DNA of 12,181 nt from an uncultured Actinomycetes bacterium (GTDB taxonomy: Bacteria > Actinomycetota > Coriobacteriia > Coriobacteriales > RUG844), in contig OMSY01000176.1 in the NCBI GenBank assembly GCA_900313875.1, positions 1 through 12,181 of the forward strand. The letters are read 5' to 3'. The translations under genes and the position numbers were made by a program. Of this stretch, positions 1,357 through 4,049 are shown one piece after another; the stretch's first letter is position 1; every line of letters starts with the position of its first letter. The notes beneath the pieces are model-generated. The model worked only from the letters and a program-made list of their open reading frames with translations, did no database searches and was not told where the DNA came from.

Positions 1357-2355
1357 TCAGGACCGGTGGTCCCTCTGCATGACCCTCCGGAAACGCAGAC
1401 GTGCCACCGGCGACTCCCAGACGCACACCTCCGTGAGATGAACCTGCTCGGGAAGGCGCTCGTCCAACCGTTCGTAGATGACACGCGCAAGGTTCTCCGC
1501 AGTCGAGTTCATCTCATCGAAGGGCTTGACCTCGTTGAGGTACGCATGGTCATATGCGTCGAGTATGGTGCGCAGGTCATCCTTGAGCTTCTTGAAGTCG
1601 TAGAGGATCCCGATGTCGTCGAGTTCCGTGCCCGCGACGCTCACCTCCACATCCCATGTGTGCCCATGCAGGTCACGACACTGACCGGGATATCCGCGTA
1701 GGGCATGTGCGGCATCGAAATGCTCCCGTACCGTGAGCTCGTACAGGTCGACGGGCTCCCTGCGCCTCTCGGTCGACCGCGGGGCGGAGGAAGGGGCTGC
1801 CGACGAGGACTGCGCAGCATCCTCGACCAGCGGAGCGGGATGACCGGAACCCGCCGCATCCGATGCATGACCGGGTCCCTGCTGCACGCCATCGGGAACG
1901 GAGGTGAGATTCGGAAGGGCCTGCTTCTGCGTGGGCCTGCGAAGATACTCGCCGACCGTCAGACGACGCGAGGCGGCATCCTCCGCGGAAGCGCGCGCAC
2001 CTCCATCCATATCGGGAGAACCCAACTCCAGGGAGACCTCCCCGAATGTGCCAAGAAGCGTGCGAGCTTGCGCGAACAGCGGCTTGAGCCCTTCGTTGCG
2101 TACACGCTCGACCCCGGTCAGCTGCAGGACGAGCGACTCGTCGGCAGAGGTGACCTCGAGCTCCCTGACACCCGCGGCCCGCGCGTTCTCGAGACCCCAG
2201 ATGATGGCATTGTAGGACGCCACGCTCCGGGTGGTCTCACCGATGAACGCACCGGCACGGTAGCCCGTACCCTCATCGGTCTCGAGCGAGAACCCGATCC
2301 CGGCAGGACCTGGCTCTCCCAAGGAGATACCGTCGGTATGCAGTGTTCCCTTCAC
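1357..2355 (-). CDS. RNase HI-like domain fused to QueD-type 6-carboxytetrahydropterin synthase
   Basis: A 332-residue fusion. Residues 1-131 resemble RNase HI (HTDGIS...GEPGPAGIGF, IGETT, AIIWGLENA, then a C-terminal helix region), but of the four DEDD acids only D8 is clear. The Glu position is S47, the next Asp position is A71, and the last Asp is not in a normal AD motif. Residues 132-203 form an Ala/Ser/Pro/Gly-rich linker. Residues 204-325 are a complete QueD/PTPS domain: zinc histidines H217, H230 and H232, catalytic C226 in the CxxxHGH motif, D269 and H270 in YDHAYLN, the NSTAEN segment and E314 in VWES. QueD turns dihydroneopterin triphosphate into 6-carboxytetrahydropterin for queuosine-type 7-deazaguanines. 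The cysteine argues against the folate-type PTPS-III. The GTG start follows GAGG at 6 bases. In mycobacteria the equivalent third gene is RNase H plus a CobC-like phosphatase. No in-frame start near the linker end would give QueD alone. No other que gene is visible. Confidence 0.88.
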   Translation of the reverse strand: MKGTLHTDGISLGEPGPAGIGFSLETDEGTGYRAGAFIGETTRSVASYNAIIWGLENARAAGVRELEVTSADESLVLQLTGVERVRNEGLKPLFAQARTLLGTFGEVSLELGSPDMDGGARASAEDAASRRLTVGEYLRRPTQKQALPNLTSVPDGVQQGPGHASDAAGSGHPAPLVEDAAQSSSAAPSSAPRSTERRREPVDLYELTVREHFDAAHALRGYPGQCRDLHGHTWDVEVSVAGTELDDIGILYDFKKLKDDLRTILDAYDHAYLNEVKPFDEMNSTAENLARVIYERLDERLPEQVHLTEVCVWESPVARLRFRRVMQRDHRS

Positions 2356-2363
2356 GTTCTACC

Positions 2364-3080
2364 TCATTCCTCCCCCGCGTCCCTGATCAGAAGTCGCCCA
2401 CAGCGGGGACATGTGTTGATTGCAGGTCCCCGTGCGATACGTTGTCGCTCGCCCTCATGGAACTCCAGGTTGCAGGCCGAGCAACGGTCATCGGCGAAAT
2501 CGGCGACACCGACGCCGCCCTTGGTGCGTGCGAGATGCAGGTAACGTTCGAGCAGGTCCTTGTCAAGCTCCGCCGCATATGCCCTGTGCAGCTCCTGTGA
2601 TTCGGAAACGACCCGATGCATCTCCTTGGCCTGTGCTGCAACGAAAGCGGCGAGCTCGGACTCCGCAGCATCGAGCTTGGCAGCGGCAGCCTTCACCTGC
2701 GCCTCGACCGCCTCGATCTTCTCGAGGCGTGCCAGATGCTCGTTCATCTGGAAATCGACCTTCTCGCGCCGCTTGACAGCACCCTCCATGTCCTTGGTGA
2801 GGCCGGCGATGAGCCTGTGATTCGATGTGCTGTCCAACTCGCGCTGTTTCTCCGAGATCTTCCTGTCGAGGTCCTCGATCTCCTTCTGGCATGCTTCGAT
2901 GCGGTCCTCGCATTCGGCTTTCAGGTCGCTGACCTGACCCTGCTTGACCAGGACCTCGTGCACCTTCTTCCGAACCGTGGCGAGCTGTGCCTTCTCAGGA
3001 AGGTTGTCGTACCTGCTTTTCGCGCGCAATATGGCCAGATCGGCATCCTGCAGGGCACGGAGCGTTCTCGCCTGATCCAT
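2364..3080 (-). CDS. Coiled-coil C4-type zinc-ribbon protein (DUF164 family)
   Basis: The 238-residue product is a long helical coiled coil (about residues 1-170, rich in Glu, Lys, Ala, Leu and Gln with heptad-like spacing) followed by a C-terminal zinc ribbon. The four zinc ligands are C200 and C203 (CSAC) and C224 and C227 (CPRC). This layout matches the family of mycobacterial Rv2229c and Helicobacter HP0958/FlgZ. HP0958 is known as an RNA- and sigma-54-related factor for flagella, but a general role for the family is not settled, and no flagellar gene is seen here. There is no signal peptide or membrane segment. The start is the ATG at 3080; a GTG at 3089 would add three residues. The 90-base spacer before it is one of the two largest in the window. 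Its TGA stop lies within the ribosome site of the next gene, 8 bases before that gene's GTG. Confidence 0.9.
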   Translation of the reverse strand: MDQARTLRALQDADLAILRAKSRYDNLPEKAQLATVRKKVHEVLVKQGQVSDLKAECEDRIEACQKEIEDLDRKISEKQRELDSTSNHRLIAGLTKDMEGAVKRREKVDFQMNEHLARLEKIEAVEAQVKAAAAKLDAAESELAAFVAAQAKEMHRVVSESQELHRAYAAELDKDLLERYLHLARTKGGVGVADFADDRCSACNLEFHEGERQRIARGPAINTCPRCGRLLIRDAGEE

Positions 3081-3085
3081 CTCTC

Positions 3086-3091
3086 TCACCT
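3086..3091 (-). promoter_or_regulatory. Shine-Dalgarno site choosing the zinc-ribbon gene start
   Basis: AGGTGA on the minus strand lies 5 bases before the ATG at 3080. A GTG at 3089 in the same frame would overlap this site and has only a distant GAAGG before it. The ATG also gives a start immediately before the coiled coil, as expected for the family. Confidence 0.6.
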
Positions 3092-3170: not shown

Positions 3171-4049
3171 TTATGGGGTCCACCAGCCGGGCTCCTCGTC
3201 AATCAACACGATATCGTCTGCAGGAACCCCGATCCGCCGGAGGACTATGCGGAGAACATCGGTGTAGAACCGCTCGGAGACATCGTGTCCCAGCTCGATC
3301 ACGGCCAGACCCATCTCATGTGCGGCGCGTGTCGCATGATATCGGGTCTCACCGCAGATGAGGCAGTCGAGACCCAGACGGGTCGCCTCGCCCAGGAACG
3401 AGCCACCTGACCCGGGGCAGGTGCCGATGACCTGGATCACCTGTTCCGGGTCACCCCAGACACGCGGGGCCCTGCCGAACACCTCGTGACATCGCGATGC
3501 GAGATCGTGCAGTCTGGTCGGCGACGTCGAGCATACCTGCAGGAAATCAGACACCGAACCGTCGGGTCGACCGCATGCGAATCCGGTGGCATCGGCTTCC
3601 GGATCCAGACGCGACAAGCCAAGGGCGTCGGGTAGGAGCTGCCGTCCATGGACGGAACGGTCGAGATTGGTGTGCATGGCGATCAGGTTGACACCCTCCC
3701 GAGCCGCCGCCATGACCACGCCGGCGGCCTCGACCCCCTCGATGGAATCGTCCTGCGCCCGTCGAGGGGCCCAAGTGCGGTGCATCGTCCGCAAGAGCCG
3801 TCGAGGAGGCTCCAGGAACACCGGGTGGTGGGTGAGCAGCACGTTGCATCCCCTGCTGACAGCGAACTGCACCGCCCTGACGCTCGGGTCGAGTGCCAGG
3901 GCGATACGCTCGACATCGGCATCGGGGTCCCCGACGAGAAGCCCCACGTTGTCCCATGCCTCGGCATCCTCCTCGGGCAGCAGCTCGAACAACCTCCGCT
4001 CGAGATACCATACCTTGTGCGCAGAACCGGAAAGGACATCGGACATCAT
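3171..4049 (-). CDS. Nif3-like dinuclear metal centre protein (YbgI/YqfO family)
   Basis: Widespread family of ring-forming hexamers with a two-metal site; often labelled GTP cyclohydrolase 1 type 2 homologue, but the cellular reaction is not settled. The 292-residue product has WDNVGLLVGDP (32-42), metal ligands H74 and H75 in LLTHHP, D130 in MHTNLDR, and H255 and E259 in GHDVSER, plus GETRYHATRAAHEMG (233-247). It is somewhat longer than E. coli YbgI but lacks the PII-like insert of the long YqfO type. The first ATG overlaps the PHP stop as ATGA and follows GGAGGGG at 5 bases; the second ATG directly after is an alternative. Downstream lie the zinc-ribbon gene and the RNase H-domain gene, the same order as mycobacterial Rv2230c, Rv2229c and Rv2228c. 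In Helicobacter a Nif3 protein and a coiled-coil zinc-ribbon protein are also neighbours. Confidence 0.93.
   Translation of the reverse strand: MMSDVLSGSAHKVWYLERRLFELLPEEDAEAWDNVGLLVGDPDADVERIALALDPSVRAVQFAVSRGCNVLLTHHPVFLEPPRRLLRTMHRTWAPRRAQDDSIEGVEAAGVVMAAAREGVNLIAMHTNLDRSVHGRQLLPDALGLSRLDPEADATGFACGRPDGSVSDFLQVCSTSPTRLHDLASRCHEVFGRAPRVWGDPEQVIQVIGTCPGSGGSFLGEATRLGLDCLICGETRYHATRAAHEMGLAVIELGHDVSERFYTDVLRIVLRRIGVPADDIVLIDEEPGWWTP

Follow-up and report, generated by a model that had tools for sequence, protein, structure and literature searches.

The window examined here, a stretch of 12,181 nucleotides, carries on its minus strand (1357-2355) a gene that joins an RNase HI-like domain, a linker and a PTPS domain in one protein, and its RNase H half appears, as judged from sequence, to be an inactive pseudoenzyme. 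We assign a probability of about 60% to one joint explanation of the data below: the gene would have arisen by fusion of an operon pair, its halves would act independently, the displaced RNase H would have been kept as a pseudoenzyme, and the PTPS half would serve folate rather than queuosine synthesis.

The frame is uninterrupted, begins with GTG and encodes 332 aa. The preliminary description had divided it into an RNase HI-like domain (residues 1-131), a linker and a complete PTPS domain (residues 204-325). On the minus strand the two domains occupy 1963-2355 and 1381-1746, and their bounds agree with the Pfam matches, both above cut-off, namely RVT_3 (RNase H, residues 8-124, E 2.4e-11) and PTPS (residues 206-323, E 4.9e-39). 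The 72-residue linker between them (1747-1962, minus strand) is abundant in Ala, Pro and Ser, and over 121 aligned rows its length varies from 30 to 233 residues. In an AlphaFold2 model of the window protein, built on a 62-sequence alignment, both domains were predicted with high confidence, and for residues 1-140 the block-mean pLDDT exceeds 90; most of the linker is of low confidence, and pLDDT falls below 50 in its middle. The first Foldseek match was 3hst, the Rv2228c RNase H domain (target TM 0.89), and E. coli QueD was matched as well (4ntk, target TM 0.87-0.89). Thus the RNase H fold proposed for the N-terminal part was recovered by domain search and structure comparison alike, and the two-domain prediction, RNase HI followed by PTPS/QueD, was borne out. 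The active-site residues of the PTPS domain are complete, and the fused protein scores 105.7 bits with NCBIfam TIGR03367 (QueD, cut-off 89.25). With NF005567 (RNase H/acid phosphatase) it reaches 51 bits against a cut-off of 326, its C-terminus being PTPS and not a histidine phosphatase. Searches of the open-licence PMC literature on RNase H with QueD, Nif3 or 6-carboxytetrahydropterin synthase, on bacterial RNase H pseudoenzymes, and on queuosine or folate in Coriobacteriia gave no listing in which this protein is described.

The architecture extends well beyond the single assembly in which it had been noticed. A total of 173 proteins match, and both domains are present in all 120 of the matches listed, among them that of the window itself; some of these are named 6-carboxytetrahydropterin synthase QueD of Coriobacteriales or Coriobacteriia in their source records. 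The window protein itself belongs to a 90%-identity cluster of 8 sequences on 14 contigs. A one-off fusion or assembly error was rejected on the basis of this cluster and of the clade-wide architecture. The window genome is a draft (80% complete, 217 contigs), which is what an assembly or frameshift artefact would call for, but the chance of one is negligible in view of the same 14 contigs, the distribution of the architecture over the clade and a relative, 84% identical, that has lost the same residues.

Judging from gene arrangement, the fused gene appears to have arisen when two adjacent genes were joined in an operon of Coriobacteriia with the order Nif3 - zinc ribbon - RNase HI - PTPS. 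By reading of translations, the minus strand of the window runs ispH, DUF512-like, der, plsY, gpsA, rpe, cysteine desulfurase, a PHP/histidinol-phosphatase-type gene, nif3, zinc-ribbon, fused gene and coaBC; the last five were searched with profiles, and the other genes were named from their translations. The DUF34/NIF3 protein (3171-4049; Pfam) and the upstream neighbour, a coiled-coil/zinc-ribbon protein of the CT398/COG1579 type (2364-3089; Pfam, with the zinc ribbon itself below cut-off), lie on the same strand as the downstream neighbour coaBC (73-1260; TIGR00521 above cut-off). A scan of genome contigs yielded 129 loci, of which 80 of Coriobacteriia type were kept. RNase H and PTPS are fused in 37 of these and separate adjacent ORFs in 40, with PTPS only in the remaining 3, and the 40 loci with two adjacent genes point to a fusion of operon neighbours. 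The zinc-ribbon gene is present in 71 of the 80 loci and in 15 of 16 relatives' loci, Nif3 in 58 and 10, and coaBC in 27 versus 13, respectively, where misses include contig ends and, for Nif3, flank limits. These associations have precedents in the relevant parts of two surveys, one of which lists RNase HI (COG0328) among DUF34 neighbours and fusions (PMC8469502), while the other describes Nif3 as adjoining a zinc-ribbon gene in Actinobacteria (PMC3372290).

The fused and tandem states have interchanged repeatedly, with at least 6 changes on a tree of 78 rows, 3 of them forced by well-supported branches. For 22 of the 40 tandem loci the position of the PTPS start codon could be determined, giving 11 gaps of 3-21 bases, one gap of 246 bases and 10 overlaps, some of which probably reflect upstream starts. 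GGAGG occurs between the tandem genes in L106, L149, L152 and L156. Records titled Slackia (L155), Aeromicrobium (L157) and Corynebacterium (P0129) hold an otherwise Coriobacteriia-type gene pair, and these assemblies may be misnamed.

The RNase H half of the window protein has lost nearly all of its catalytic residues. D8, E47, D71, H111 and D121 were scored in a family alignment of 121 rows, and each is retained in 116-118 of them. In the window (minus strand), codon 47 (2215-2217) encodes Ser for a catalytic Glu found in 118/121 rows, codon 71 (2143-2145) Ala for an Asp found in 117/121, and codon 121 (1993-1995) Arg for an Asp found in 116/121. The resulting set is D8-S47-A71-L111-R121, so that of the D-E-D-D residues only D8 is left. 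A shifted alignment might rescue D71 through the Asp at 72, but for that position alone; 47, 111 and 121 would still be lost. R12, N14, N43, N44, S72 and N117, residues of a kind that we take to touch the RNA/DNA hybrid, are likewise altered. The net charge of the domain is -8, on the acidic side, but family members range from -13 to 6, and hence charge decides nothing. When family-conserved positions were defined as those kept in at least 95% of the rows used (P0001, P0002, P0003, P0021 and P0085 set aside), the window was changed at 15 of 38 such positions in RNase H versus 0 of 43 in PTPS (Fisher p 1.9e-6).

These losses are shared by one close relative and are otherwise rare. P0003, 84% identical to the window protein (P0001), also lacks E47, D71, H111 and D121. 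The rows that break D-E-D-D are P0001 with its copy P0002, P0003, P0021 and P0085, while P0077 and P0089 merely start late. In P0021 (381 aa) both halves are apparently broken, with RNase H and PTPS catalytic residues altered. Among 93 domains read from loci (some genomes counted twice), all five residues are intact in 91, the exceptions being the window (D, S, A, L, R at positions 8, 47, 71, 111 and 121) and G041 (S, E, D, L, E). In its relatives, then, the domain looks by its residues like an ordinary RNase HI.

A separately encoded enzyme may have made this loss tolerable. Our PF00075 survey for a second rnhA covered 17 relatives with the cluster RNase H and 48 further genomes, 7 of them repeats, making 58 distinct genomes. 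The cluster RNase H was the only RNase HI found in 54 of these; a separate rnhA was found in four, namely the window genome (G000) and G041 among the 17 relatives and G091 and G107 among the 48. By reading of its sequence, the separate rnhA of the window genome has all its catalytic residues. Contamination by the contig that carries it was thought unlikely, as it correlates with the window at 0.939 in tetranucleotide composition, compared with 0.959 and 0.964 for two other contigs of the same genome and 0.07 to 0.86 for ten contigs of other genomes. The cluster RNase H is broken in 2 of the 4 genomes with a separate rnhA versus 0 of 53 others (G023 left out; exact p 0.004, uncorrected for kinship). 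Displacement is not automatic, since G091 and G107 have a separate rnhA and yet an intact cluster RNase H. P0021 and P0085, in which RNase H residues are also broken, are known without genome context. The converse also occurs: the PTPS half of the fused protein is degenerate in G009 and G041, and both genomes carry another PTPS that stands alone. The genomes in which either half is seen to be broken thus all have a stand-alone enzyme of that kind (2/2 genomes in each case). In P0129, P0130 and P0141 the PTPS match begins at profile position 29-30, with no HGH there. A second kind of PTPS - RNase HI adjacency was observed in G003 and G041, two of 35 genomes with a stand-alone PTPS, where an E. 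coli-type rnhA comes immediately after the PTPS gene (3035-3924 in L160 and 1041636-1042487 in G041 contig C9, L161).

On the reading that we favour, the two halves would act independently of each other, with a flexible linker as tether, and each would become dispensable once a stand-alone enzyme covers its job. In the window lineage an E. coli-type RnhA encoded elsewhere would have taken over hybrid removal, and the fused RNase H, now a pseudoenzyme, would be retained in folded form, probably for the folding, the oligomer packing or a protein contact of the PTPS half. Independent halves fit what is reported for Mycobacterium smegmatis. There MSMEG_4305 and a separate rnhA both encode RNase HI, and one or the other, but not the two together, could be deleted (PMC4429107); within MSMEG_4305, the CobC half was judged to be functionally dissociated from the RNase H half (PMC7466739).

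Retention of the dead domain was assessed by comparing P0001 with P0003. The two differ at 13 of 135 positions in RNase H, 12 of 123 in PTPS and 27 of 67 in the linker, that is, by 9.6%, 10% and 40%, respectively. The low divergence of the RNase H half, like that of PTPS and unlike that of the linker, suggests that the dead domain is still under constraint; the constraint seems close to that on a live domain, with the low-complexity linker being an imperfect yardstick. For comparison, mean RNase H identity was 82.8% in live pairs with a PTPS identity of 90-100% (n=15). P0003 has 11 of the 15 window changes exactly and differs at the other four, so that formerly conserved sites vary more between the two proteins (4/15 vs 9/120, p 0.04). 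Compared with live relatives, the window RNase H is some 12-17 points lower in identity than live pairs whose PTPS identity is similar (bins 60-75%), which is to be expected once function is lost.

Two other readings of the RNase H half have to be weighed at this point. It might be a passive relic without a role of its own, persisting because its removal needs an in-frame deletion or because it keeps PTPS soluble; the variable linker and the mycobacterial precedent, in which the dissociated halves form a protein probably fixed by drift (PMC7466739, in the part concerned), agree with this, but a divergence of 9.6% in the dead domain over the time in which the linker has reached 40% and PTPS 10% argues for continuing constraint, and we regard a relic as a real possibility that is probably not the correct one. 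The preliminary description had instead seen a reusable module, perhaps RNA- or nucleotide-binding, which would target or regulate various metabolite enzymes. The reusable part of this proposal holds. A search with the RNase H part of the protein from G009 gave 727 matches, and among the 120 listed a second Pfam domain is present in 56, including PTPS (39), formyltransferase (6), cupin (4), HAD (3), pterin-4a-carbinolamine dehydratase (2), NUDIX (1) and deoxynucleoside kinase (1). Among these listed matches, PTPS, formyltransferase and cupin are C-terminal to RNase H, and HAD, NUDIX, dehydratase and kinase N-terminal. The kinase region of P0218, whose RNase H spans residues 239-368, retrieved as query four more kinase-RNase H proteins. 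P0200, P0202 and P0154, in which RNase HI is fused to pterin-4a-carbinolamine dehydratase or formyltransferase, show more pterin/folate-type partners. D-E-D-D is kept in the partner-fusion rows shown, with Tyr for His111 in five and with the partly aligned P0166 as exception.

The binding part of the same proposal found no support. Its recurrence with several nucleotide-, pterin- and folate-type enzymes, and the conservation of the domain after its death, would suit a nucleic-acid- or nucleotide-binding adaptor. However, the window domain has lost, besides its catalytic residues, the six other conserved active-site-motif residues named above (R12 to N117), its relatives look like working RNase HI (91/93 domains), beside which no other RNase HI was found in 54 of 58 genomes, and partners on either side of the domain fit fusion of neighbours better than a single adaptor design. 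A binding module is accordingly improbable, and fusion of operon neighbours followed by displacement of the RNase H half remains our preferred reading.

The motif of the PTPS half is the main point in conflict with a simple PTPS-III assignment. It reads C226-R-D-L-H230-G-H232 (1660-1680, minus strand), with Arg where PTPS-III has Glu, and is thus a PTPS-I motif by the definitions in the relevant part of PMC5041015. The cluster PTPS proteins share a strict PTPS-I form, C followed by R, K, Q, A, S, C or H and then xLHGH, with V for L in one locus; the PTPS-III motif ExxHGH is found neither in the window nor in these relatives. By the published motif the enzyme should therefore be QueD-like, which counts against a folate role. 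Stand-alone PTPS, in turn, occurs in 35 genomes, and all 15 of those read have CENLHGH, an instance of the CExxHGH that the same source treats as a PTPS-I/III hybrid motif (PMC5041015, as regards motif definitions).

The gene content of the genomes points the other way. Among 56 distinct genomes with a cluster PTPS (15 relatives and 48 genomes, 7 of them repeats), neither QueC at E<=1e-20 nor FolB at E<=0.001 was found in any; in controls, QueC was detected in 9 of 14 at E<=1e-20 versus 12 of 14 at E<=0.001, and FolB in 10 of 14, and for the 41 extra genomes the QueC threshold of 1e-20 shows strong matches only. In 60 relatives QueC matches at E<=0.001 occurred in 34, but those below 1e-50 (about 1e-55) were limited to four, all of family f2, and the others look like weak matches to related ATP-binding proteins. 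FolB was found in 10 of the 60 and PTPS in the other 50, with zero overlap, an exclusion that may represent a single event because FolB is confined to one family (f10). FolE is present in 56 and FolK in 57 of the 60. Both are present in 14 of 15 fusion/tandem relatives, all draft genomes, with G010 missing both. In the window genome FolE and a FolP-FolK protein lie on one contig, the FolP and FolK domains sharing a 456-aa frame beside FolE (L077, contig C102, 2117-3487). The failure to find QueC and FolB in the 56 genomes, together with the mutual exclusion of FolB and PTPS, makes the name "QueD" doubtful for the fused PTPS, and a role in bypassing FolB appears to fit better, its PTPS-I motif notwithstanding. 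That a CExxHGH PTPS replaces the broken fused PTPS in G009 and G041, genomes with neither FolB nor strong QueC, speaks for one common, putatively folate-type job. The fused PTPS would then convert dihydroneopterin triphosphate, supplied by FolE, into 6-hydroxymethyl-dihydropterin for FolK and FolP, replacing the FolB that was not found.

The opposite view is that the databases name the protein correctly and that it makes 6-carboxytetrahydropterin for queuosine or another 7-deazaguanine. Its TIGR03367 score above cut-off, its strict CxxxHGH motif and the presence of TGT in 60 of 60 relatives favour this view. TGT, however, can serve salvage, and QueC, which is needed for preQ0, is missing from the 56 genomes at the threshold used and strong (about 1e-55) only in the four f2 relatives. 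Moreover, in G026, of a sister family, the PTPS beside a radical-SAM (QueE-like) protein, QueC and QueF has CENLHGH instead. This run, likely a queuosine operon, is found at 2544-4955 of L168 (contig C25), and its PTPS scores 86.4 with TIGR03367, under the cut-off, versus 105.7 for the fused protein. We consider a true QueD unlikely and retain the folate role for the PTPS half.

A conserved dead RNase H and a QueD without QueC are more surprising than the module idea with which the preliminary description ended. RNase H/metabolic-enzyme fusions were already known, and the PTPS fusion with a dead RNase H adds to them a case from nature in which one can ask if an RNase H and the metabolic enzyme fused to it depend on one another. 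A naturally occurring pseudo-RNase H, apparently under constraint, indicates that an enzyme domain may persist once its chemistry is gone. QueD without QueC points to a likely mis-annotation and provides a candidate for the FolB step for which one group of Coriobacteriia seems to lack the usual enzyme. As a bolder idea, which we hold to be improbable in its full form but worth stating, a retired RNase HI, displaced by a separate rnhA, may have been kept and reshaped into a partner domain, itself without catalysis, for an enzyme of PTPS-I type, which would carry out the FolB step without the PTPS-III glutamate; and RNase HI may couple repeatedly to enzymes of folate, pterin and nucleotide metabolism because cells need to remove hybrids and to supply nucleotides at the same time.

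Among known systems, the RNase H/acid phosphatase proteins (Rv2228c, MSMEG_4305; NF005567) are similar in having an N-terminal RNase HI, which in 3hst provides the closest solved fold, a variable linker and a C-terminal metabolic enzyme; the mycobacterial CobC-type fusion is described in PMC7466739, in the part that concerns it. The window protein differs from them in ending in PTPS rather than a CobC-type phosphatase and in having an RNase H without catalytic residues, and the Coriobacteriia pair is also found as tandem genes. With QueD/PTPS-I (TIGR03367; 4ntk) it shares the fold, CxxxHGH and the active-site His, Asp-His and Glu, but it is fused to RNase H, no QueC was found at E<=1e-20 in the 56 genomes with a cluster PTPS, and it likely belongs to another pathway. 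Unlike PTPS-III, it has no Glu of ExxHGH. It resembles the PTPS-III and PTPS-I/III hybrids that bypass FolB, as far as these are treated in the relevant part of PMC5041015, in its genomic setting: FolE and FolK are present where FolB was not found, FolP is also present in the window genome, and the stand-alone PTPS of sister genomes is of CExxHGH type in 15 of 15 cases.
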